The notes below the pieces were generated by a model that saw only the letters and a list, made by a program, of their open reading frames with translations, was not told the origin of the DNA and searched no databases. Positions 992 to 45,127 of a stretch of 45,127 nucleotides of DNA are shown here, piece by piece. This stretch comes from a virus, in IMG/VR virus record IMGVR_UViG_3300042876_000243, positions 1-45,127 of that record. One strand, written 5' to 3'. How positions within the stretch are numbered: position 1 is the first letter of the stretch; every line of letters begins with the position of its first letter. Position numbers and translations under genes: made by a program.

Positions 992-1013
992 AACCCGGCT
1001 GTTATACCGGGTT
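992..1013. terminator. Bidirectional intrinsic terminator
   Basis: A 7-bp stem, AACCCGG/CCGGGTT, with an 8-nt loop lies between two convergent genes. On the minus strand it is followed by a run of T, a strong terminator for the gene at 1026-2174. On the plus strand it is followed by TAGTTTTAG and can end the ribbon-helix-helix transcript. Confidence 0.8.
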
Positions 1014-1025
1014 AGTTTTAGTGAT

Positions 1026-2174
1026 TTAAACCTCCATGAACTTTTTCTTTGATTGGAGGATGTTAACGTCGTCTTGTGATGGAATAATGTTTACTTGTAA
1101 TCCTCTCCAATTAAATTTAGTCTCACCTCTCAGATATTTCTTAACATATACAAGCCGTTCATCCATGTTGTAGGTTTCAACCCTGTGTCGTCTATAGTGC
1201 GACTTCACGTAATGCAATATAGCCTTCTTTCTTTCTGCACCTTCCGGTATGTTTCTTAATTCAAATATATCATTAAATGATTCTGGATGAATTGGTATTT
1301 TTATTCCAATTGAGTTATCGTTTTCCCTTATATAAACGAACCATTCAAAGTAGGCCGTAAATGATACAATTACAGCATAAATAATATTAAAAACGTTATC
1401 AAGGTATGTTCCTATGCTTTCTTTAATATTTTTGTCAATAGCATATTTGTCATAATAAAACCTGTAATCAAGAGGAAAATATACAGGGAATGGATCGTTG
1501 AAAATGTATCCCTGGTTAATAAGATTTTTATGTAATTCATCGTAAGCAGTCTTATCAATTTTGGCTTCGTAATTCTTTATCTCATCTTCACTGACGGCAT
1601 TGATTTCATTCATTTTTATTTCCTCAATAATTCCAACCACTTTATCATATGCTTTTTTTAAGGTAATATAGTCGCCGTGAAATTTATCGAATCTCATTCC
1701 TGCGTTAGTAAGAAACCACTTCTCTGCTTTTGATGAATAAAATCCATACTGTAACTCACACATGAATCGTGATTTTTTTATGAATGGCCTTTTCTCTATA
1801 TCATTCATATATTTTATGTGTCTCACATAAGCTATGTTTGATAGGTTTAATAATTTGACATTGATATTTTTGCAAATTTTTATCATATCGTATAGGGTCT
1901 TTTCATCCCCAAATAAAAATTGCAAATTATCATTGCCAAGTTTTTCAATATCGAATAACCATGCCCCGTCAAAAGACTTAATATTGAAAGGCTTTATAGA
2001 TTCATTATAGCGCATCATTGACGATGGGTTATTCAATAACATCAACCCCCATTCTAATTTGTCAATGAATTTATCTTCAATTTCTGGAAGTTTAATGCTA
2101 TCACAAAAAGACTTAAATGTTTTTCCGCTACTAGATATTAAGTCTTTATTTTTGTAGTCGCCAAATTCATTCAT
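1026..2174 (-). CDS. Cargo (moron-like) protein of unknown function, 382 aa
   Basis: I do not recognise the family. The protein has no signal peptide. It contains one hydrophobic stretch (NIIYAVIVSFTAYFEWFVY) and a basic C-terminal part with HYVKSHYRRHR, then LVYVKKYLRGETKFNWRG. This resembles His/Arg-rich C-terminal motifs seen in many mobile-element proteins of unknown role. The gene is visibly richer in A+T than the tail genes before it and the protease after it. It has its own promoter (2267-2298), a structured leader (2192-2255) and a terminator (992-1013). That is the architecture of a moron, an added gene expressed independently of the late operon, often in the lysogen. A host-benefit or exclusion role is inference only. 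Confidence 0.6.
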   Translation of the reverse strand: MNEFGDYKNKDLISSSGKTFKSFCDSIKLPEIEDKFIDKLEWGLMLLNNPSSMMRYNESIKPFNIKSFDGAWLFDIEKLGNDNLQFLFGDEKTLYDMIKICKNINVKLLNLSNIAYVRHIKYMNDIEKRPFIKKSRFMCELQYGFYSSKAEKWFLTNAGMRFDKFHGDYITLKKAYDKVVGIIEEIKMNEINAVSEDEIKNYEAKIDKTAYDELHKNLINQGYIFNDPFPVYFPLDYRFYYDKYAIDKNIKESIGTYLDNVFNIIYAVIVSFTAYFEWFVYIRENDNSIGIKIPIHPESFNDIFELRNIPEGAERKKAILHYVKSHYRRHRVETYNMDERLVYVKKYLRGETKFNWRGLQVNIIPSQDDVNILQSKKKFMEV

Positions 2175-2191
2175 GATTTATAAAATTTAAA

Positions 2192-2255
2192 ATCCCACAG
2201 GTTTCGGGTGGCGGCCCTACTCCCTATGGGATAAATTTCTTTTTTCTGCCGCCAC
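2192..2255 (-). ncRNA. Structured leader RNA (pseudoknot or attenuator), copy L1
   Basis: On the minus strand, arm A (GTGGCGGC, 2255-2248) comes first. Then arm C (ATCCCATAGG, 2232-2223), arm A' (GCCGCCAC, 2215-2208), and arm C' (CCTGTGGGAT, 2201-2192) followed by TTTTAAATTTT. C and C' form a 10-bp stem with one G-U pair and a U-rich tail, like an intrinsic terminator. Its loop holds A', which pairs with A, so the arms cross (A-C-A'-C'). This means a pseudoknot or a terminator/antiterminator switch. A starts just after the predicted promoter, and the ATG at 2174 follows C' by 17 nt. A second copy with the same order lies at 20248-20348. Confidence 0.55.
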
Positions 2256-2266
2256 AGAAATACATT

Positions 2267-2312
2267 CGAATATAACAGTTTATCTCAAATTTGCCAAATA
2301 AATCTTTAGCAA
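2267..2312 (-). promoter_or_regulatory. Palindromic element copy 2 with Bacteroidota-type promoter
   Basis: The palindrome at 2312-2291 reads TTGCTAAA, GATTTA, TTTGGCAA on the minus strand. Its right arm supplies a TTTG (-33) box at 2298-2295. A -7-like box, TATATTCG (2274-2267), follows after 20 nt, close to the TTTG/TAnnTTTG promoter of Bacteroidota. Transcription would start just before arm A of leader L1. The palindrome plus four more bases is identical (26 bp) to the copy at 20379-20400. It sits right after the tape-measure stop codon. Confidence 0.6.
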
Positions 2313-6175: not shown

Positions 6176-6972
6176 GACCTGAATACTTTATTGTCAATTA
6201 TCTTGAAATTCGACACTTCAAATATTTCCTTATCGTATTCCACAAAGGCAAAACCGAGATTCCATTTATTATTCCTGGCATATTGCGGATGCTCTTCGCA
6301 CAGGTGACCGGTTGACCAACAGGAAACAATATGACCATCCAACCGTGGATCTGAGTGTTGCGATGTTCTATGAAGGTGTGAACATATTGAACTATGGTTA
6401 GTCTTTAAAAATAATGTCCTGGCAGGGTTTACACTTATTGACTTCATCCCTACCTCATGTCCGTGCAAAACCGGAAGTTTACCGAAGTAAATTATACGCT
6501 GATCCCGAACAAGTTCAATACCCCTGGCAAGTAAATTGAAATTGTTCTCAAACCTGAATACATCAAGATCGAGTAATTCAGGGGCTTTATTCATTAAAAA
6601 GTTTTCATAACGCTCGTCATGATTACCTAACTTGTAAAATATTTTTACTGAAGGGAACGCTCTTTGCAATACATCGAGCATCTGATTACCGGCCTCAATT
6701 TCCTGCTTGAAAGTTCTTTTTCGTGGGTCATGTTGGAATTTACTCAACCCGTGAAAGTCCATGAAGTCACCGTTTATTAAAATTGAATCAATGTTTAACT
6801 TCTGAGCGTATTCAAGCATTAAAAGCACCCCGACGTAGTTATGATAGGGAACATGAATATCTCCTATAACCAACGTTCTTTTATGGACCGTTGGCATAAT
6901 ATAAGGTTCGTATGAAGATTCAAACGATTCTGGTATATTATATTTTTTCGATAACTCTGAAAGGTCGAACAT
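6172..6972 (-). CDS. Calcineurin-like metallophosphoesterase
   Basis: A 266-residue protein with the ordered metal-binding motifs of the calcineurin-like superfamily: GDIH (37-40), NGDF (67-70), GNHDE (116-120), HGHE (170-173) and SHLH (198-201). Such enzymes use two metal ions to hydrolyse phosphodiesters or monoesters; the substrate here is unknown. It sits among tail genes, so either it is a late-expressed accessory enzyme or it acts on nucleic acid during packaging or entry. It overlaps the preceding small gene by 35 nt; an internal ATG at 6897 would avoid the overlap and keep all motifs. Confidence 0.85.
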   Translation of the reverse strand: MFDLSELSKKYNIPESFESSYEPYIMPTVHKRTLVIGDIHVPYHNYVGVLLMLEYAQKLNIDSILINGDFMDFHGLSKFQHDPRKRTFKQEIEAGNQMLDVLQRAFPSVKIFYKLGNHDERYENFLMNKAPELLDLDVFRFENNFNLLARGIELVRDQRIIYFGKLPVLHGHEVGMKSISVNPARTLFLKTNHSSICSHLHRTSQHSDPRLDGHIVSCWSTGHLCEEHPQYARNNKWNLGFAFVEYDKEIFEVSNFKIIDNKVFRS

Positions 6973-11985: not shown

Positions 11986-13200
11986 TCATAATGCTCTTTG
12001 TTTTGGTCGTTTGATAAAGGGTTTGATTATTGTCTTTGCGATATATCTGAGGGCATCAATCAAATGGTTGTTGTCATCCAGTGGCACTTCACTTTTCTTA
12101 TCCAGCCAAACCCAAGTATTAAGTTCCCGGCCCAGGTTAATACTGTCAGGATCGACAATGATCTCATAGTCCTGCAGCATCTTAATGTCATCGTTTATCA
12201 ATCCTTTGGTTACTGGGATAATATTTATGCCCTGCCCTTTCAAGTCCTCAATGGTCCGGGTTGCTGCCGAGTCGGCAACGATCAACTTGTTAAGTGGGTT
12301 CTTTGCCTTAATCAGCACGCCGAGGGCATTTGTTGACAGTCCTTTCTGGTATATCTCCTCCTTAACGTATATCTTTTTCTGGGCCTTATTAACTGCGAAC
12401 TTGACAAGAGCGTCCGGGTCCCGATAGCCGAAGTCCTGCCCGTAGGCGTAAGGCAGTGTATTATCGAACGGGCCATACTTCCAGTTGCTCAATATTACCC
12501 CGTCTGCTTTTTCAACCCACCCGCCGAGCATGATATGATTATACTTAAGCGGGTTTTCAATCTTCATTGTTTCTATCTCGTACAGGTAATCCTGTGGCAC
12601 GTATTCAATCGCATCCAGGTAAGTGGTATGAATGTAGCACACGTTATCTTTTACGCCGTTAAAACCTCCCTGAACGCCTTTACGCTCAAAAAACCGGTTA
12701 TATATCCAATGGTTCTTTGTCGTCGGGTTCAGAATCAATATGACAAAGTTCTGCACATCATTGGCCCGAATGGATAGGTTTATCTTGTCGAAGTTGTCTT
12801 CATCGTTTTCCTCTTCGGCTTCATCCAGTACGAAGATTGAAAAGTCTTTCAGCGATTTAAGTTTAGCAGTCTGATTCCCGTCCGAGGTATGGATACCCTT
12901 AAAAACAATCTTCCGCTTGCCGGCTCCGACTATCCTGTCTGAGAATGAAGCGTAATAATCACTCAGTCCGAGCAGGTCAATCTTTTCCTGAAACTCCGGT
13001 ATGATTGAATCCTTTGCGCTGGTTAAAGTGTAACGGGTGTACAGAGCCCTGTGGTTGTGGTTGTTTATAAGTGTGCAGACGGCTGTCGATACTGAATAGC
13101 TTTTGGATGAGTACCGGCCACCAGTAACAATGAAGTACCTTATACCGGCAGGCGGGTTAAAGAGCGGTTCAAACTTTTCGTTGTATACAAGTTCACTCAT
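11986..13200 (-). CDS. terL: Terminase large subunit
   Basis: A 404-residue DNA-packaging motor: an N-terminal ATPase that pumps DNA through the portal and a C-terminal RNase H-fold nuclease that cuts concatemers. Seen: Walker A-like GGRYSSKS (27-34), Walker B IFVLDEAE (122-129), and nuclease aspartates Asp256 (AYGQDFGYRDP), Asp310 (LIVADSAA) and Asp382 (HLIDALRY). The order and spacing match the PBSX/SPP1-like TerL group. It overlaps the small subunit gene by 8 nt. Unusually, no portal gene follows; the portal lies at 40077-41510. Confidence 0.93.
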   Translation of the reverse strand: MSELVYNEKFEPLFNPPAGIRYFIVTGGRYSSKSYSVSTAVCTLINNHNHRALYTRYTLTSAKDSIIPEFQEKIDLLGLSDYYASFSDRIVGAGKRKIVFKGIHTSDGNQTAKLKSLKDFSIFVLDEAEEENDEDNFDKINLSIRANDVQNFVILILNPTTKNHWIYNRFFERKGVQGGFNGVKDNVCYIHTTYLDAIEYVPQDYLYEIETMKIENPLKYNHIMLGGWVEKADGVILSNWKYGPFDNTLPYAYGQDFGYRDPDALVKFAVNKAQKKIYVKEEIYQKGLSTNALGVLIKAKNPLNKLIVADSAATRTIEDLKGQGINIIPVTKGLINDDIKMLQDYEIIVDPDSINLGRELNTWVWLDKKSEVPLDDNNHLIDALRYIAKTIIKPFIKRPKQRAL

Positions 13201-18128: not shown

Positions 18129-18689
18129 TTAGTTTGTCATATTAACCTCGGTAGGTTCGTTTACTGCGGTGAAGGTGTTGACGGTTATAACCGGCTTGAT
18201 TACTATTGACACGTCCATTCGCTCAATCTCGGTCATATTGAATGCGTAAATAATATCCTCAATCTTAGCACATTCGACGTTTACCTTTTGGTAATTACTC
18301 ATGAAGGTTTTACCCTTGAATGAATACCACCACTTACCGATTTTCTGAGCTTCTTTTAATGTAAGCGTTGCAACAACAATTTTTTCATCTGTCTGAATGC
18401 AGCATCCTAAAACAATATCCCTGAGCTGGGAAAACTCTTCTTTGTAGTTCTTATCCGTATCAAGCATATTATTAACCGTTTTTACAGCATGAAGTACGGT
18501 TGCATGATCCTTACCTCCATTTATCAATCCGATTTTAGCCAGTGAAACTTTCGTTAACTCCTTTGCAAAATACATTGACTGTTGACGGGCCTTAACAATG
18601 TCATGATCCCTGGTCTTGCTTTCAAAAATGTATTCCGGTAAATTGTAAAACCGGCATACTGCGCTTTTAATGATATATAACTGGTTCAT
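18129..18689 (-). CDS. DnaA domain IV-like DNA-binding protein
   Basis: A 186-residue protein whose N-terminal half matches the C-terminal DNA-binding domain of DnaA. It has ARQQSMYFAKELTKVSLAKI (34-53), then GLINGGKDHATVLHAVKTV with the GGKDHATV signature that reads DnaA boxes. There is no AAA+ ATPase domain. Stand-alone domain IV proteins could recruit host DnaA/DnaB to the phage origin, act as the phage origin binder, or block host initiation. The C-terminal half is unassigned. It overlaps the upstream gene by one base, and the iteron-carrying initiator gene lies one gene further upstream. Confidence 0.75.
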   Translation of the reverse strand: MNQLYIIKSAVCRFYNLPEYIFESKTRDHDIVKARQQSMYFAKELTKVSLAKIGLINGGKDHATVLHAVKTVNNMLDTDKNYKEEFSQLRDIVLGCCIQTDEKIVVATLTLKEAQKIGKWWYSFKGKTFMSNYQKVNVECAKIEDIIYAFNMTEIERMDVSIVIKPVITVNTFTAVNEPTEVNMTN

Positions 18690-19168
18690 TATAGTTGATA
18701 TTTATATTTTACTTCATCGTGTTCGCGGTCAATGTTATCTAAGAAAATACCTACCCTTTCCTGTCCGTATTTATAGAAAATATCAAGGATCTTCATACCG
18801 TCAATGCTTTCATAAAACGGCCCGTAAAAACCTGTTTTAATTCGCTTGAAAATAAGAGCAATATCAGAAGTCTTTAAGTAATAGAACTCTTCATATACCA
18901 TTAATGACGTTTCCTCAATCTGTTGCGGGGTCATTTTACGTGATAAATTCAGGAAGTCATTAAGGTTTATCAGCCACACTTTCAATATGGCAATAGGTAA
19001 TTTTTCACCGTGTTCCTTTTTTATAACAGCCAGGCTTTTATGATTACTGGCTATAGCCGCCGGCAATGAACTTATTTCCTTAAAAACGGCTGGTTTAGTA
19101 CATTCAGAAAGTATCTGTTCAGGCGTGTATTTAACAATCCCTGAATTTGATTTAACTATCTCATTCAT
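18689..19168 (-). CDS. Replication-module protein, unknown
   Basis: A 159-residue mostly helical protein. The C-terminal half (FKRIKTGFYGPFYESIDGMK then ILDIFYKYGQERVGIFLDN) resembles proteins that follow DnaD/O-like initiators in Bacteroidota phages and may act as helicase loader or accessory factor. This is recalled context, not a motif proof. It overlaps the initiator by 4 nt and the DnaA-like gene by one base, so all three are co-translated. Confidence 0.55.
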   Translation of the reverse strand: MNEIVKSNSGIVKYTPEQILSECTKPAVFKEISSLPAAIASNHKSLAVIKKEHGEKLPIAILKVWLINLNDFLNLSRKMTPQQIEETSLMVYEEFYYLKTSDIALIFKRIKTGFYGPFYESIDGMKILDIFYKYGQERVGIFLDNIDREHDEVKYKYQL

Positions 19169-19917
19169 CGTATTTCGTCTAATACTTGTTGTTTATATGA
19201 ATCTGGAACCTTTGAATTTTTCGTACTTTTTTGTTCGGGAAACAAACCCTCCCACCCATTCGCAATGCTTTCTTCAACTATCGCAATTGCTTTATTTTCG
19301 TCGCCGCAAGAGATTTTTGCAAGTTTTTTCAGTGCTGCCTGTTCTGATATTTCGGAAGCATAAGAAAATTTATGTTCTTTCTTCTTGTATTCTTTCCACC
19401 TATCCCACCATATTTTGAAATTTTCAGAATCAAATGGATAAACTAAACAAACCTGCGCGTCATCGACGTGTATTTCCCTTTCCTTTTCCCTTCCCTTCCC
19501 TTCCCTTCCACTTAGTAATTTCATTGACGCGTCAAGCACGCGTGAACCACGCGTCATAATATAACATTCATGCGGGTTTGGTAAGTTTGATTTAGTTTCT
19601 CTATTATTTATTATCTGGTGATTATTCCATGTGGGTACAAAGCCGTAAAATTCATCTGTTTCACTTTCCGTCAACGCGTACTTATTAATGTAACCACGCG
19701 TCCACAACGCGTCAAGCACGCGTGAAAAATCACATTCATCATAAGGTAGACAATCTAGTTTTAGCATTTCTGGAACCCATTTAAACCGACCCTCCCTGTC
19801 GCAAGTAGTCCATAAACCAGCGAAAGCAAGTCTTAATGGTAGATTTTCTTCCTTTTCGGCTTGATATAATTTATAGTTCCTGAAGAACTCCGGCTTTATT
19901 GTCCTTATTCTTGCCAT
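19165..19917 (-). CDS. Replication initiator (O/DnaD-like replisome organiser)
   Basis: A 250-residue protein starting MARIRTIKPEFFRNYKLYQA, then LPLRLAFAGLWTTCDREGRF and DCLPYDECDFSRVLDALW. This is the typical N-terminal winged-helix of phage replication initiators. A charged linker, SGREGKGREKERE (136-148), separates it from a DnaD-like C-terminal part (WWDRWKEYKKKEHKF...). The gene contains repeated ACGCGT sites in 11-bp phase (19527-19723) that also encode a repeated RVLDA. This parallels phage lambda, whose origin iterons lie in gene O. It should bind these iterons and recruit the helicase. Confidence 0.8.
   Translation of the reverse strand: MARIRTIKPEFFRNYKLYQAEKEENLPLRLAFAGLWTTCDREGRFKWVPEMLKLDCLPYDECDFSRVLDALWTRGYINKYALTESETDEFYGFVPTWNNHQIINNRETKSNLPNPHECYIMTRGSRVLDASMKLLSGREGKGREKEREIHVDDAQVCLVYPFDSENFKIWWDRWKEYKKKEHKFSYASEISEQAALKKLAKISCGDENKAIAIVEESIANGWEGLFPEQKSTKNSKVPDSYKQQVLDEIR
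19455..19723. repeat. Origin iterons (ACGCGT in 11-bp phase) inside the initiator gene
   Basis: Exact ACGCGT hexamers start at 19527, 19538 and 19549, and at 19674, 19696, 19707 and 19718. Within each cluster the spacing is 11 bp or 22 bp, one or two helical turns. Degenerate partners GCGCGT (19455) and ACGTGT (19466) are also 11 bp apart. A 20-bp unit, ACGCGTCAAGCACGCGTGAA, is shared by both clusters. I saw no other ACGCGT clusters. Phased repeats in the initiator gene are the hallmark of a lambda-like origin. Confidence 0.7.
19473..19509. repeat. Pyrimidine tract with TTCCC repeats next to iterons
   Basis: 37 consecutive T/C bases on the plus strand, mostly repeats of TTCCC or TTTCC, lie between the degenerate and exact iterons. 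They encode the Gly/Arg/Lys/Glu linker of the initiator. A homopurine-homopyrimidine tract can melt or form a triplex, so it may be the unwinding element; this is inference. Confidence 0.5.
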
Positions 19918-20212
19918 GTAATTCCTTTAAATATTGGCTTATTATATACCCTATTCTATATTTTTTTACTTGTTTGCGCTCAACTAAAGCGCGATGTATC
20001 TTTGAATGACATTCCTTACATACAACCATTAGTTTATCCCTGTCATATTCCCATGCCAATTTACCCCTCGTATATTCAATGTGATGAACTACAAATCTTG
20101 TCCTTACTGGCGATTGATAACCACAACACTCACAAGTGCAATGGTTTATTTTAATCAGTCTATCTGAAAATTCTCTCCACCTTTTATCTAATAATTGTTG
20201 TCGGTAAGTCAT
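19871..20212 (-). CDS. HNH endonuclease
   Basis: A 113-residue nuclease from the ATG at 20210-20212 (MTYRQQLLDKRWREF). It has CECC (27-30), VVHHIEYTRG (41-50) and VVCKECHSKIH (63-73), the zinc-stabilised HNH ββα-metal fold that cuts DNA with one metal ion. It overlaps the initiator gene by 47 nt. The gene is the first complete one after leader L2. It is one gene downstream of the helicase-methyltransferase fusion, so it could be a restriction partner, a homing-type nuclease or a packaging helper; the last is less likely because the terminase is far away. Confidence 0.8.
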   Translation of the reverse strand: MTYRQQLLDKRWREFSDRLIKINHCTCECCGYQSPVRTRFVVHHIEYTRGKLAWEYDRDKLMVVCKECHSKIHRALVERKQVKKYRIGYIISQYLKELHGKNKDNKAGVLQEL

Positions 20213-20334
20213 TCGTGTAAAATAGTTAAGCCGGCCACCAATGAAAAATCCCAAGCCGTAACACTGCGAATGCTCGCCTGGGATAGTTTCACCGGAGAAC
20301 CGGCTATTTTGTTATTGATTAAATTCGTGTACAT
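20209..20334 (-). CDS. Possible 41-aa ORF within leader L2
   Basis: An open frame from the ATG at 20332-20334 (MYTNLINNKIAGSPVKLSQA...) ends in an ATGA overlap with the HNH start, the coupling style common in this genome. However, it lies inside the structured leader, and leader L1 has no such ORF. It may be a leader peptide whose translation resolves the RNA fold, or it may be spurious. Confidence 0.3.
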   Translation of the reverse strand: MYTNLINNKIAGSPVKLSQASIRSVTAWDFSLVAGLTILHE

Positions 20335-20348
20335 TTCCGCAGTGTTAC
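20248..20348 (-). ncRNA. Structured leader RNA (pseudoknot or attenuator), copy L2
   Basis: On the minus strand the order is arm A GTAACACTGCG (20348-20338), a small hairpin (CCGG-TTCT-CCGG), arm C ATCCCA (20284-20279), arm A' CGCAGTGTTAC (20268-20258), arm C' TGGGAT (20253-20248), then a run of T. A and A' are perfectly complementary over 11 bp, and G-U plus G-C pairs extend the helix. C/C' and the U-run match leader L1, as does the crossing order A-C-A'-C'. It lies 30 nt after palindrome copy 5, against 35 nt in L1. The HNH ATG follows C' by 35 nt. This suggests it gates the replication operon. Confidence 0.55.
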
Positions 20349-20353
20349 AGGTG

Positions 20354-20400
20354 TAAATATATATACAATTTGTAAAATTTGCCAAATAAATCTTTAGCAA
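20354..20400 (-). promoter_or_regulatory. Palindromic element copy 5 with Bacteroidota-type promoter
   Basis: The palindrome (20400-20379) and the next four bases are identical over 26 bp to copy 2. TTTG at 20386-20383 in the right arm and TATATTTA at 20361-20354 are 21 nt apart, a plausible -33/-7 pair. Transcription would start a few bases before arm A of leader L2 and run into the HNH and replication genes. Placement of the operator over the -33 box suggests repression or activation at this site. Confidence 0.6.
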
Positions 20401-20448
20401 TTATTAGAAAATTATTAACAGTCCGGGTGTTTATATTGTGTTGGGTTT

Positions 20449-22974
20449 TCATATTATTTCAATCATTGAAAATAAAGTCGGACTTAAAATATCTGTTTCA
20501 GCTTCTTTTAAGTATCTGAGGCCGTCCCGGAATGATTCCGGATTAAGTTCAGTTCCTAATCCAATACGTCCCATTTTTACGGCACGGACCGGTACAGTAA
20601 AGAGCCCGGCAAACGGATCGAATACTATCTCGTTTTTATTGGAGAATCGATTTATGCAACGATCAACGATATCAAACTGTAAGGGGCAGATGTGCATGTT
20701 TAATTTTCTCTGTGACTGTGAACCGTTAAGGGTCAACATCCTGTTTACGTCATCCCAAACAAAAAAAGATCTTGAGGGAATGTTTAACGTTTGAAAGGTT
20801 GCCGGTAACTTTCCGACATGATCGAGTTCGTGAGCTGTGTCGCAGTGTTCTTTATAGTCATAAACCTTCCATGCTGCATAGTCTGAATAAAACCGATTTA
20901 CTTTATCAATCGGAAGCATCCTAATTTCTTCAGGTGTTAAAAATCTTTCTCCAGAGCTGTTCCATTTTGCCCTGGCGTCAATCTGCCATTGGCCTCTCGG
21001 ATATTCGTCTTTTGTTTTCTGAACTGGGATATCAGCGTAAGCACGTGAGGTATCGGAAGGTAATTTTCTGAAAAGCAAAACATATTCCGGACAACCTATA
21101 CCCATTTTGGAACCGTCTTTACATTGCTCAGTCCATCCGAGCCGGTAAGTTTGATTGTTTTCCCTGACAACATCGGTTTCAACGGTAATTCTACCCATAT
21201 ACTGAAACCCATGTTTGATAAAGTGTAAAACGGTAAAATCAGAGAACGGGTCAAGAGTTGGCATTCCGGTACCGGTTGCATTACCAAACAAAATTCTGTC
21301 TTTCACATGAACACAAAAAACCCGGCCAGGCATTAATATTCTTAGAAGTTCAGGTGTGAGAAAGTCCATCTGCTCAAAGAAGTGCTGATTATCTGAAGTG
21401 TGCCCGAAGTCGTTATAAGTCGGGGTATATTCGTAGTGATTTGAAAATGGAATAGAAGTAACTCCCAGGTGAATTGAGTTGTCAGGCATATCCATAATCG
21501 GTGGTATGCAATCGGAAAGAATCGCAGTGTATAATTTGCCTTTCTCTACTTTGATGTCGTTTATAATGCTTCTTTTTAGTTTTTCCATGGTATGAATATT
21601 TGATAGTCCGTTGTCTTTTATGATTTTTGTCATCTGATCAACCAAATGATTGTGTTGTTTCCATTTGTGATTAAGGGCTTTGAGAATCTCTCCTTCGCTT
21701 TCAGCATAGATCACGTGAATATTAACTTCACGATCCTGAAGAAACCTGTAAATTCTATGAATAGCCTGTATGAATGAATTGAACTCATAATTTATTCCTG
21801 CGAAAATCATAACATGACATTGCTGCAGGTTCACTCCGGATCCGTACATTTCCGGTTTACTCAAAAAGACTCGAGTTATTTTATCTTTCCATTTCTGAAG
21901 TTCTATTTCCCGGGTATCTATATCGGTATTTCCGTAAAGAGAAGTAAATGAAACATCGATACTTTTAAGCATCCGTTCGATCTCTTGTTGCTCATTGTTT
22001 AGGTCACACCAAAGGACAATCTGATCATCCGGATAGGAAAGAATAATTCTTTTCATTTCTTCAATTCTCTCTGACATACTCTCTCTCTTTTCACGGGCAG
22101 CGTCTTTTAATCCTAAAGCAGCATCCCGGAAAAGTTTAACCTGTCCATCCTGATCAGTGCCTGCAGTCTTGTGATCTACTTTGACTTTGTGATACAAAAC
22201 ATTCATTTTCGGCAGGTCATATCCTGCGTCATCGTAACCAAGATCTGAAGGTTTTGTAATGAAAAGTGCCCAGCTGGATAACCACAGCCAAAACTCTTTT
22301 TGTTTGCTTTCGTGTAAAGTAAGATTGTTAGCTTTCGTGCTGTCCCTTTTAAAAAATCTTGTCAATGCCTGACCTGTGTCCATAATTTCCAGGTACCCGG
22401 CATAGTGAATCAGTTCTTTGTATTTATTCGGTGAGGGTGTGGCCGTGCAAACATATTTATACTTAACACCTTTAAACTTATCGAGAAAGGTTTGATATGT
22501 TTTCGATCCGTAAGACCGTAAAACAGAGGCTTCGTCCAAACTTGTTACAGTAAAGTATTGCGGATTTATATCCCCGTCCCTTACTCTTTCGTAGTTTGTG
22601 ATTAAAACATTACTTTTTGACTTTTCAACTTCATTCTGAGTTTTGACGTATTCGACATCAATGAATAGTTTCTTCTGAGCGTCATTATAAAACTCCCCTT
22701 TCACTCCGAGCGGACAAACAATAAGAGCTTTCCCTCCAACTTCGTTTGTGATGTAATTACAAATGATCAGCTGTTGAATTGTCTTACCAAGTCCGAAGGA
22801 TTCAAATAAAGCCCTTCGGCCTCCTTTTATGGCCCAATTGATTGCATCCCTTTGGTGTGGTTTTAGGGTACCATCTTTGAACTTTATCAAAGGTATCTGA
22901 ACATCTAAACCGCTTTCAGGTGCAATACAAACCTTTGAAAGTAAAAATTCGTTGTATCTTTCAAGTTTTTTCAT
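20449..22974 (-). CDS. SNF2-type helicase fused to a beta-class DNA methyltransferase
   Basis: An 841-residue two-part protein. The helicase half has GLGKT (61-65), DEAS (147-150), TATPSPN (177-183), SGVNLQQ (379-385) and QAIHRIYRF (403-411), the ordered motifs of an SF2/SNF2 translocase. The methyltransferase half has TSIPF (506-510) in the position of the catalytic S/DPPY motif, and DPFAG (786-790) as the AdoMet site. This order (IV before I) marks a beta-class amino-methyltransferase. The first Pro of PPY is replaced by Ile and Tyr by Phe, so activity is not assured. It may methylate the phage genome against host restriction, aided by translocation; a long target-recognition segment (about 600-770) is present. 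Confidence 0.8.
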   Translation of the reverse strand: MKKLERYNEFLLSKVCIAPESGLDVQIPLIKFKDGTLKPHQRDAINWAIKGGRRALFESFGLGKTIQQLIICNYITNEVGGKALIVCPLGVKGEFYNDAQKKLFIDVEYVKTQNEVEKSKSNVLITNYERVRDGDINPQYFTVTSLDEASVLRSYGSKTYQTFLDKFKGVKYKYVCTATPSPNKYKELIHYAGYLEIMDTGQALTRFFKRDSTKANNLTLHESKQKEFWLWLSSWALFITKPSDLGYDDAGYDLPKMNVLYHKVKVDHKTAGTDQDGQVKLFRDAALGLKDAAREKRESMSERIEEMKRIILSYPDDQIVLWCDLNNEQQEIERMLKSIDVSFTSLYGNTDIDTREIELQKWKDKITRVFLSKPEMYGSGVNLQQCHVMIFAGINYEFNSFIQAIHRIYRFLQDREVNIHVIYAESEGEILKALNHKWKQHNHLVDQMTKIIKDNGLSNIHTMEKLKRSIINDIKVEKGKLYTAILSDCIPPIMDMPDNSIHLGVTSIPFSNHYEYTPTYNDFGHTSDNQHFFEQMDFLTPELLRILMPGRVFCVHVKDRILFGNATGTGMPTLDPFSDFTVLHFIKHGFQYMGRITVETDVVRENNQTYRLGWTEQCKDGSKMGIGCPEYVLLFRKLPSDTSRAYADIPVQKTKDEYPRGQWQIDARAKWNSSGERFLTPEEIRMLPIDKVNRFYSDYAAWKVYDYKEHCDTAHELDHVGKLPATFQTLNIPSRSFFVWDDVNRMLTLNGSQSQRKLNMHICPLQFDIVDRCINRFSNKNEIVFDPFAGLFTVPVRAVKMGRIGLGTELNPESFRDGLRYLKEAETDILSPTLFSMIEII

Positions 22975-26042: not shown

Positions 26043-26393
26043 TTATTCAATTTCAAATCCATCAAGGTAAATTTCCCTACGCCTTACGCTTGTTACCCTT
26101 GTCCGTGTCGTCCGGGTACGGGTGATCGGGGATTCAAAGAATAGGTTGGTACAGATTATGGCAAGGAAAAGGACGGGGAGAAGGCGGTAACGAGTTATCC
26201 AGTACCAGCTAATTAGTTCAGCCACGTTGCGTGTTTCCGACTTTTCACGGATCATTTTAACCTGAGTTTCAACGGTACGGGGTGAACGGTATCTGATAGC
26301 CGCTATTTCCTTCGTACCTAAACCTTCGGCAAGCATGATCGTTGTTTCCTGCTCGACTAGGCTTAATTCATCGAACGTGCATGAGGTGTTCAT
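26043..26393 (-). CDS. LuxR-type HTH regulator with membrane anchor
   Basis: A 116-residue protein. Residues 10-60 form a LuxR/GerE helix-turn-helix (LSLVEQETTIMLAEGLGTKE then IAAIRYRSPRTVETQVKMIR). A hydrophobic segment, RLLPVLFLAIICTNLFF (70-86), follows, then a Thr/Arg-rich tail (TRTRTTRTRVTS). The protein should be a membrane-tethered transcription factor, without a receiver or ligand domain. It overlaps the upstream HTH gene by 4 nt. The basic tail may face the periplasm or, if the segment is a re-entrant helix, the DNA; topology is unclear. Confidence 0.7.
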   Translation of the reverse strand: MNTSCTFDELSLVEQETTIMLAEGLGTKEIAAIRYRSPRTVETQVKMIREKSETRNVAELISWYWITRYRLLPVLFLAIICTNLFFESPITRTRTTRTRVTSVRRREIYLDGFEIE

Positions 26394-26611
26394 TGTATGA
26401 GATTGTTGATTTGCTTTTCTCTTTTAGATTCGCTCTGCTTTCTTGTTTTGGCAATCTGTATAGCTTTGTCAAGTATCTTTTCATTCTGTCTGGTTCCGTT
26501 CAAGACTTTATTGACGTAGCTTACTGATAGATTCAGTTCTTTTGCGATTGAACCCTGATCGCCTTTAGTGAGTTTCTTCCTTAGTTCAGTTAATTGCTTG
26601 TTGGTTATCAT
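26390..26611 (-). CDS. Small XRE-type HTH protein
   Basis: A 73-residue protein with a five-helix HTH pattern (TELRKKLTKGDQGSIAKELN then LSVSYVNKVLNGTR) and a basic C-terminal helix. It could be a Cro-like early repressor acting at the divergent region near 27 kb. It is the second gene of the leftward early transcript, after a terminator-like region, so its expression may depend on read-through. Confidence 0.65.
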   Translation of the reverse strand: MITNKQLTELRKKLTKGDQGSIAKELNLSVSYVNKVLNGTRQNEKILDKAIQIAKTRKQSESKREKQINNLIQ

Positions 26612-44399: not shown

Positions 44400-45127
44400 T
44401 TATTTATTTTTAAAAGGTTTCCGAACAATGTTTTTATCAGGATCACCGGCGGGCGGGTTGCCATCGGCAGGATCGCCAGCGGAGAACTGTGCTTTAAACT
44501 TGGTAAATTCAGCTTTCACCTCATTTACTGCCTTTTCGGCTTCTGCTTTTACCGTTTCGGCTTCGGCTTTTGCAGCCTTCAGGCTTTCGTTTTCAGCTTC
44601 GAGAGCAGCGATTTTATCCTTCAGGGCCTGGTTGTCATCGGCAGGTGCCGGAGCTTTGATTTCGTTTACAACGCCAGCCTCACATACAAGGATAGTACCG
44701 TCCGGCATCTGGAATTCACCCTGAGCAGGTGCACCGGCAGCCGTAACTTTTACGCCCTGTTTCAATTCTGAAGCGTCGGTAAGTTCAGGGAATTCAAGTT
44801 CATTGCCGTTTACATCGGAAAGCATGAGGGCCTTGATCTTCAGTTTCGCCATGATCATCTTCAGAAACTTTTCAAAGCCGCTGATTTTTTCTACAACTTC
44901 TTTATTATCCATTTGAGTATTATTTGATTTAAGTTTTGCAACTGCATTAATAGTAGGTTTTACCAGTGTGGCAAATCCTAACGATTCAATCTGTTCCGGT
45001 GTAAGTGGTATGTTCTCACCCATAAAGGCTTTAATCACGTTCACATCTGAACCCGTGGCGTTGGCATACCATTTAGCGTAATCGGATTCAACCTGTTGAA
45101 GTTCTTTTGAAGCGGCGGCCAGTTCAT
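44400..45127 (-). CDS. Prohead protease, C-terminal part with scaffold-like tail (cut by window edge)
   Basis: This is the 3' part of the same protease gene that starts at 735, entering from the window edge. After the protease domain the last 200 residues form a hinge and a coiled-coil tail (DKIAALEAENESLKAAKAEA..., AEKAVNEVKAEFTKFKAQF), then a Gly/Pro/Asp-rich end (GDPADGNPPAGDPDKN). A protease fused to a scaffold-like coiled coil lets one gene supply both functions, and the capsid gene starts 6 nt after the stop. The sequence from 44745 on duplicates 1-383. Confidence 0.85.
   Translation of the reverse strand, partial: ELAAASKELQQVESDYAKWYANATGSDVNVIKAFMGENIPLTPEQIESLGFATLVKPTINAVAKLKSNNTQMDNKEVVEKISGFEKFLKMIMAKLKIKALMLSDVNGNELEFPELTDASELKQGVKVTAAGAPAQGEFQMPDGTILVCEAGVVNEIKAPAPADDNQALKDKIAALEAENESLKAAKAEAETVKAEAEKAVNEVKAEFTKFKAQFSAGDPADGNPPAGDPDKNIVRKPFKNK
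44745..45127. repeat. Terminal direct repeat, right copy (pairs with 1-383)
   Basis: The right copy of the 383-bp terminal overlap described at 1-383. It differs at 7 positions, all in the protease gene. It is best removed when the genome is closed at 44,744 bp. Confidence 0.9.

Follow-up and report, generated by a model that had tools for sequence, protein, structure and literature searches.

In attenuators of the pT181 type, an upstream RNA segment base-pairs with one transcribed later while the terminator is still unfinished; the shared segment lies within the terminator stem, and the antisense RNA is encoded on the opposite strand. The C4 antisense RNA of P1/P7-like phages is a phage leader RNA whose loops are complementary to its own operon. 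The CI RNA of P4 pairs with complementary segments of its own leader, that of the P4 replication operon, and thereby brings transcription of the operon to an end; the system includes two complements (seqA and seqC) and a processed RNA (PMC4825925). The P4-like phage phiR73 has its own immunity specificity determinants, according to Sabbattini (1996) as cited in PMC7567579. In Gifsy-1, the short, intrinsically terminated IsrK RNA and a read-through mRNA arise from the same promoter, with RNA–RNA pairing between them (PMC4825925). Phage HK022 carries two putRNAs downstream of its two early promoters; each put consists of two stem-loops, the copies are related in sequence, and put promotes read-through of terminators (PMC9378689). 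Here we describe a pair of phage leaders that resembles known RNA immunity devices and fits no described family.

The window, by which we mean the whole stretch of DNA analysed, comprises 45,127 nt of the virus record IMGVR_UViG_3300042876_000243. Judged from its promoter type and the similarities of its phage genes, it probably represents a temperate phage of Bacteroidota. Positions 1-735 and 44400-45127 match successive parts of phrog_33547 (head maturation protease region), and the record is therefore probably a circularly closed map cut within one gene. Two leaders, designated W1 (2312-2192, minus strand) and W2 (20400-20248, minus strand), show the same order of parts: palindrome and promoter, arm A, arm C, arm A', arm C', U-run and the ATG of an ORF. 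Their features are listed below; L003 is a related viral contig.

2287..2312, minus strand: W1 operator-like palindrome, overlapping the -33 box, identical to 20375-20400
2267..2298, minus strand: W1 predicted promoter (TTTG 2298-2295, N20, TATATTCG 2274-2267), from the consensus scan with one mismatch
2248..2255, minus strand: W1 arm A, GTGGCGGC, predicted RNA 5' end, pairing with 2208-2215 (shuffle P 0.0012)
2223..2232, minus strand: W1 terminator 5' arm (C), AUCCCAUAGG
2208..2215, minus strand: W1 arm A', in the 21-nt apical loop of the terminator
2189..2201, minus strand: W1 terminator 3' arm C' (2201-2192) and U-run
20375..20400, minus strand: W2 operator-like palindrome, identical in L003 at 6511-6536
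20354..20386, minus strand: W2 predicted promoter (TTTG 20386-20383, N21, TATATTTA 20361-20354), from the consensus scan
20338..20348, minus strand: W2 arm A, GTAACACTGCG; the high identity of the promoter module with L003 stops at 20350, just before this arm
20298..20305, minus strand: W2 helix B 5' strand, AGCCGGTT, from the minimum free energy (MFE) fold, with an equivalent helix in L003
20276..20284, minus strand: W2 terminator 5' arm (C), AUCCCAGGC
20258..20268, minus strand: W2 arm A', CGCAGTGTTAC, in the 19-nt apical loop
20244..20256, minus strand: W2 terminator 3' arm C' (20256-20248) and U-run (20248-20244)
20229..20236, minus strand: W2 helix B 3' strand, GGCCGGCT, from the MFE fold; 3' of the U-run and so part of the read-through RNA only

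The first-pass annotation of this DNA had proposed a structured leader behind an operator-like promoter, with an identical 26-bp palindrome at both sites and a -7-like box 20-21 nt after a TTTG, and each of these points proved to be real. The 26-bp sequence TTGCTAAAGATTTATTTGGCAAATTT was identical at 2312-2287 and 20400-20375 by blastn, and a search of the whole window for the palindrome TTGCTAAAGATTTATTTGGCAAAT returned two minus-strand copies (2312-2289 and 20400-20377) and no others, with none in 100 shuffles. The first 24 bases of TTGCTAAAGATTTATTTGGCAAATTT were found nowhere else in the window, even allowing three mismatches. In a scan with the Bacteroidota-type promoter consensus TTTG-N20/21-TAnnTTTG, the right half of the 26-bp palindrome was seen to hold the promoter TTTG, and the sites read TTTG-N20/21-TATATTyr (N20 in W1, N21 in W2), each with a single mismatch to the consensus. 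The W1 promoter is also the best sigma70-like site (TTGGCA-17-TATATT), and that of W2 is likewise readable as sigma70-like. A degenerate search for the palindrome in genomes was discarded, as its matches sit in unrelated contexts. Two HTH proteins are candidate palindrome binders, given that the two palindrome-sharing phages encode identical versions of each:

26390..26611, minus strand: HTH repressor-like protein, 100% identical to its L003 counterpart (phrog_1468)
26043..26393, minus strand: LuxR-type HTH protein, 100% identical to its L003 counterpart

A 35-codon ORF at 20345-20452 (MKTQHNINTRTVNNFLIIAKDLFGKFYK...) overlaps the W2 promoter and palindrome. Its start overlaps the stop of the upstream gene, its stop codon lies inside arm A, and a shorter version is present in L003; the conservation of this ORF may be only at the DNA level.

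Arm A begins 11 nt (W1) or 5 nt (W2) past the -7 box, which puts it right at, or very close to, the predicted start of the transcript. The pairing of A with A' involves 8 bp in W1 (GTGGCGGC/GCCGCCAC) and 11 bp in W2 (GTAACACTGCG/CGCAGTGTTAC), the latter extending to 14-15 if G-U pairs are allowed. The earlier coordinates, the order of the arms through to the U-run and ATG, and the C-A' spacing of 10-11 nt were all correct (11 nt in W1, 10 nt in W2). The C arm, which had been taken as the 6 bp ATCCCA/TGGGAT, needed revision: it pairs over 10 bp in W1 (AUCCCAUAGG/CCUGUGGGAU, apical loop of 21 nt) and 9 bp in W2 (AUCCCAGGC/GCUUGGGAU, apical loop of 19 nt), and it is this greater length of C that puts A' within the terminator loop. 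With A' in the apical loop and A at the predicted transcript start, the leader pair is, as read from the DNA, a terminator whose loop is complementary to the first bases of its own transcript. In W2 an outer helix B (AGCCGGTT/GGCCGGCT) encloses the terminator and U-run, giving a 26-bp irregular stem in the read-through RNA; W1 has no helix B. The A/A' arms, the loops and B are unrelated in sequence between W1 and W2, and no leader pairs well with any loop but its own.

The strands of an HDV-like fold follow the order P1, P2, P1', P2', which the order A, C, A', C' parallels, and the leaders could on that ground be read as a double-pseudoknot nucleolytic ribozyme with A as P1 and C as P2. We regard this as extremely improbable. 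A fold of the HDV type also has a P3 hairpin between P2 and P1', a P1.1 and a catalytic C in J4/2. The 10-11 nt between C and A' hold no P3 hairpin, P4 and a conserved J4/2 are absent, no Rfam ribozyme matched, and A would need a flanking cleavage site at the very start of the transcript.

The C hairpin and U-run form an intrinsic terminator, with stems of 9-12 bp followed directly by U4-U7, and match the usual form of such terminators in Bacteroidota, AAA..ATCCC..GGGATTTTT. A covariance model built on the C terminator (R1) was run over 396 Bacteroidota genomes, and eight matches were inspected. Five of these (L175, L177, L180, L181 and L182) have the structure of a plain terminator, AAAA-ATCCC-(short loop)-GGGAT-TTTT, L178 is similar, and none of the eight shows a crossing pairing like that of W2. 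The idea that arm C is a distinctive, specially conserved element was therefore abandoned: R1 finds mostly plain Bacteroidota terminators, and the conserved ATCCC/GGGAT arm says little by itself. The unusual part is the match of the loop to the 5' end of the transcript.

One other viral contig, L003, carries the exact palindrome. It is a close relative with mosaic modules, in which L003 1-2581 corresponds to window 27153-24597 at 96% identity, and the two DNA-binding regulators named above are 100% identical. The W2 promoter region (window 20452-20350) corresponds to L003 6459-6561 at 95% identity, and this high identity stops at 20350, two bases ahead of arm A. Past that point the L003 leader is still recognizable in the alignment as a homologue of W2, strongly diverged, and the HNH proteins encoded downstream are 34% identical over 71 residues. 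As the break falls at the predicted transcript start, the leader seems to form a unit with the module that follows it. In L003, A (AAAGCAGCCAC) pairs with GTGGCTGCTTT over 11 bp (11/11), C (AUCCCUGGGU/ACCUGGGGAU) forms 10 bp around a 19-nt loop, helix B (ATCCGGCAAC/GTTGCCGGAT) has 10-12 bp, and U5 is followed by the ATG of the HNH gene and then by the replication gene. The A/A' arms, B and the inner C arms thus differ from those of the window and are all still paired, behind the same promoter. The first-pass annotation had noted that A and A' differ in sequence between the copies and yet pair, and had held that a homologous phage lacking the complementarity would speak against its proposal; L003 keeps the complementarity and extends the observation to a third copy. 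In an alignment of the three sequences (A1), restricted to B and C with A/A' excluded, five of 20 nested pairs change on both sides, against 2.5 in shuffles; this count on its own is weak support, coming from three sequences only. An 841-aa SNF2-helicase/DNA-methylase gene at 20449-22974 of the window looks like a clean insertion relative to L003, in which the counterparts of the flanks 23035-22984 and 20452-20350 are nearly adjacent.

Two background scans bear on how often such complementarity arises by accident. The first, over 1.5 Mb of loci that were mostly viral, yielded 479 long-loop terminators (loop 15-45 nt), among which an upstream pairing score of at least 28 was reached only by W2, L003, L188 (an integrative element described below) and one repeat array, L096, which was discounted as such; one downstream control scored 28.5. 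The second scan covered 328 kb of Bacteroidota DNA, made up of 14 stretches chosen regardless of content and four regions around rep homologues. The scores of W2 (31), L003 (28) and W1 (23) compare with a maximum of 23.5 among its 136 long-loop terminators, and none of the 136 pairs as well as W2, L003 or L188. Of 651 background terminators, 3.4% had loops able to form 8 or more Watson-Crick pairs with the 70 nt upstream, and 0.3% reached 11 or more. W1 alone is therefore modest evidence. W2 and L003, with 11 pairs each, are strong, and the three jointly are far beyond chance.

These numbers also bear on the view that the leaders are ordinary terminators, in which promoter and terminator are functional and the A/A' complementarity is incidental. 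The C hairpin has a common terminator form, and with 3.4% of long-loop terminators reaching at least 8 upstream pairs, W1 could be accidental. Against this, W2 and L003 are homologous with both A and A' changed and all 11 pairs retained, at least 11 pairs being found in 0.3% of the background, and L188 repeats an 11-bp pairing at the same place relative to its rep operon. An incidental origin is thus quite unlikely in our estimation, and chance as the source of the whole set was rejected on the third copy and the background scans.

L188 was reached by a homologue search with the replication protein of the window and is a small integrative element in a Bacteroidota genome, comprising an integrase, the leader and a lambda-O-like rep operon. 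At 2906-2801 (minus strand), A (AAACGAGGCAG) forms 11 bp with CTGCCTCGTTT, which lies in the 29-nt loop of a 12-bp terminator followed by U7 and an ATG, and the leader precedes the first gene of the replication operon. It has no sequence similarity to the leaders of the window. L188 is probably a sequence-unrelated copy of the layout; we say probably because about 46 terminators were inspected in that 16-kb stretch. The arrangement of integrase, leader and rep is P4-satellite-like. A further copy may be present in L135, a 105-kb phage contig rich in homing endonucleases, where 12115-12175 (minus strand) shows a 10-bp A/A' pairing and a terminator with a 36-nt loop directly before a GIY-YIG endonuclease gene. 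We do not rely on it, as it came from about 160 pattern hits, among which a chance 10-bp match is not unlikely. The HNH gene after W2 and the L003 leader, and the GIY-YIG gene in L135, had suggested an RNA of homing-endonuclease cassettes; this idea was dropped, since L188 has no endonuclease after its leader and L135 is possibly due to chance.

The layout is not general: it was looked for in three further Bacteroidota phage genomes and was missing from all of them. Nor was one seen by eye at those HNH homologues that were read in the 396 Bacteroidota genomes, or at L210, a rep homologue of the L188 family, and searches with HNH and Rep in viral contigs gave nothing useful.

The genes downstream of the two leaders in the window are as follows.

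1026..2174, minus strand: W1 cargo ORF, 382 aa, with no recognizable relative
992..1013, minus strand: intrinsic terminator after the W1 cargo ORF
19871..20212, minus strand: HNH endonuclease ORF, the first gene past the W2 leader (PF01844, E 2.8e-6; phrog_144)
19165..19917, minus strand: replication initiation protein, overlapping the end of the HNH ORF (phrog_16167, E 9e-36)

The leaders of W2, L003 and L188 precede HNH-Rep or rep operons, and that of W1 does not. The proposal that the leaders gate a cargo gene and the replication operon therefore stands for the replication operon, in W2 (HNH-Rep) and L003; the gene after W1 is an orphan ORF. The product of this ORF had no match in Pfam, PHROGs, NCBIfam, PADLOC, PDB, phages or plasmids, and its single-sequence AlphaFold model reached a pLDDT of 37. 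With its own promoter and terminator, the ORF resembles a cargo cassette set between the tape-measure gene and the head genes. A relationship of the W2 leader and HNH gene to IscB/omegaRNA was rejected, the 113-aa HNH protein giving a domain-level IscB match only, of 19 bits against a cut-off of 175 bits. The replication operon also encodes a 186-aa protein (18129-18689) with a DnaA C-terminal HTH domain (PF08299, E 8e-21), too short for a full DnaA.

Folding was modelled with a nested energy model, which excludes pseudoknots. When the transcripts were cut at the end of A', the probability of A:A' exceeded 0.95 in all five cases (W1, W2, L003, L188 and L135). In full transcripts to the U-run, A:A' was ahead in W2 and L003 and the terminator was ahead by 3-8 kcal/mol in W1, L188 and L135, the two structures lying within about 8 kcal/mol of each other. 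The comparison of cut and full transcripts suggests that A:A' can be the earlier structure, with the terminator then either competing with it or forming alongside it.

We consider it somewhat better than an even bet that the leaders are transcription attenuators, and the earlier suggestion of a terminator/antiterminator-type device is supported as to type. RNA polymerase would start just ahead of arm A, from a promoter controlled through the palindrome by a repressor or activator. A' would be made about 65-70 nt after A in W2 and L003 (about 30 nt in W1) and would fold back on A. C' would be made next, and the C:C' hairpin with its U-run would stop transcription unless A:A' delayed or blocked the hairpin. 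Were A occupied otherwise, most simply by the A' loop of a terminated copy of the same RNA, the terminator would be free to form and the operon would be off. It is the simplest mechanism in which every part has a use: a controlled promoter, an early A:A' pairing and then a terminator. The retained A/A', B and C pairings of L003, the high pairing scores, L188, the restriction of good pairing to each leader's own loop, the ordinary Bacteroidota terminator form of C and the early A:A' in the folding model all argue for it. W1, with only 8 pairs, no helix B, a clear terminator preference in the model and an orphan gene downstream, argues against it, as do the position of A' in the terminator loop and the three Bacteroidota phages that lack the leader.

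With A' in the loop and not in the stem, A:A' does not strictly preclude the terminator, and the two may be present at once, forming a pseudoknot. A static version of this would have A:A' and C:C' form together in cis, the folded 5' end modifying RNA polymerase, as put does in HK022, or protecting the 5' end of the mRNA. The predicted pseudoknot loops of W1, W2, L003 and L188 (L2 6-10 nt, L3 1-8 nt) do not clearly forbid coexistence, and the elements are promoter-proximal with one copy per operon, as in HK022 (PMC9378689), the two phages being alike in having two such RNA elements in one temperate genome. The put copies are, however, sequence-related pairs of stem-loops (PMC9378689), whereas the A/A' arms, loops and B of W1 and W2 have nothing in common and a U-run is present; moreover, the W1 operon consists of one gene and then a terminator, which an antiterminator would overrun. 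On balance we find a static pseudoknot unlikely.

A leader that senses a protein or ligand, as a riboswitch or autoregulation site with a translational outcome, would fit the position of the ATG 15-35 nt past the U-run and the folding of helix B after read-through in W2 and L003. No loop or junction is conserved that could serve a common ligand: the loops are unrelated among the copies, and it is mainly the terminator bases that are conserved. No Rfam riboswitch matched, and we think a sensing leader highly unlikely. With Rfam covariance models at the gathering threshold, the window gave a tRNA as its only match and the W1, W2 and L003 leaders gave nothing convincing, in agreement with the first-pass view that no described class matches.

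Compared with C4, the leaders W1, W2 and L003 gave no cmscan match. The arrangement differs from that of pT181-type attenuators in that A' lies in the loop, overlapping C' by at most 1-2 nt in W2. For an antisense RNA of the pT181 kind there is only a weak plus-strand candidate upstream of the W1 leader, a promoter-like site at 2122-2154 (TTTC-N21-TATTTTTG) of a kind expected 0.66 times by chance; it could be the source of an antisense RNA across the W1 leader. No plus-strand promoter candidate crosses the W2 leader. By analogy, the nearest known logic is that of the P4 CI RNA and Gifsy IsrK, neither of which is matched in full. Like P4 CI, we find a leader on a replication operon (W2, L003 and L188), internal complementary segments (all copies) and a predicted premature termination; unlike P4 CI, there is a single complement and an intrinsic terminator with A' in its loop. 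The separate immunity determinants of phiR73 are comparable to the difference in A/A' between W2 and L003. A second, seqC-like complement was sought in the window, and on the minus strand the W2 A sequence occurs only at A itself, allowing one mismatch. The pairing of a terminated short RNA with a read-through RNA, proposed here from sequence, resembles IsrK. IsrK, however, activates orf45-anrP translation in trans, and the present leaders have no antirepressor operon and carry their pairing segments elsewhere.

What the analysis shows is the layout, the pairing kept in three copies despite changed sequences, the terminator form and the folding order in the model. Three steps beyond this are inferred: opposition of A:A' to the terminator, production of a terminated short RNA, and possible action of this RNA in trans. 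Taking the last step further, the terminated leader of a resident phage might act on the leader being transcribed from an incoming relative that bears the same code, so that the replication operon of the newcomer stays off, making A/A' a self-recognition code. This is a speculative extension that we hold to be rather unlikely. If it were true, phages with the same repressor and operator but different A/A' codes would be heteroimmune, and the W1 copy would put its cargo gene under the same type of control with a code of its own.

The leader probably serves as an RNA switch that controls phage replication and one cargo gene. Very few systems of RNA-based control of phage replication are described, mostly enterobacterial, and this leader would extend such control to Bacteroidota. 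It would be a compact attenuator, conserved mainly in that its terminator loop matches its own 5' end, and present in an apparent Bacteroidota phage as well as a small integrative element of that phylum. This would give a simple search rule, namely a terminator loop complementary to the start of the transcript, and would allow a direct test of whether related phages tell self from non-self by such pairs.
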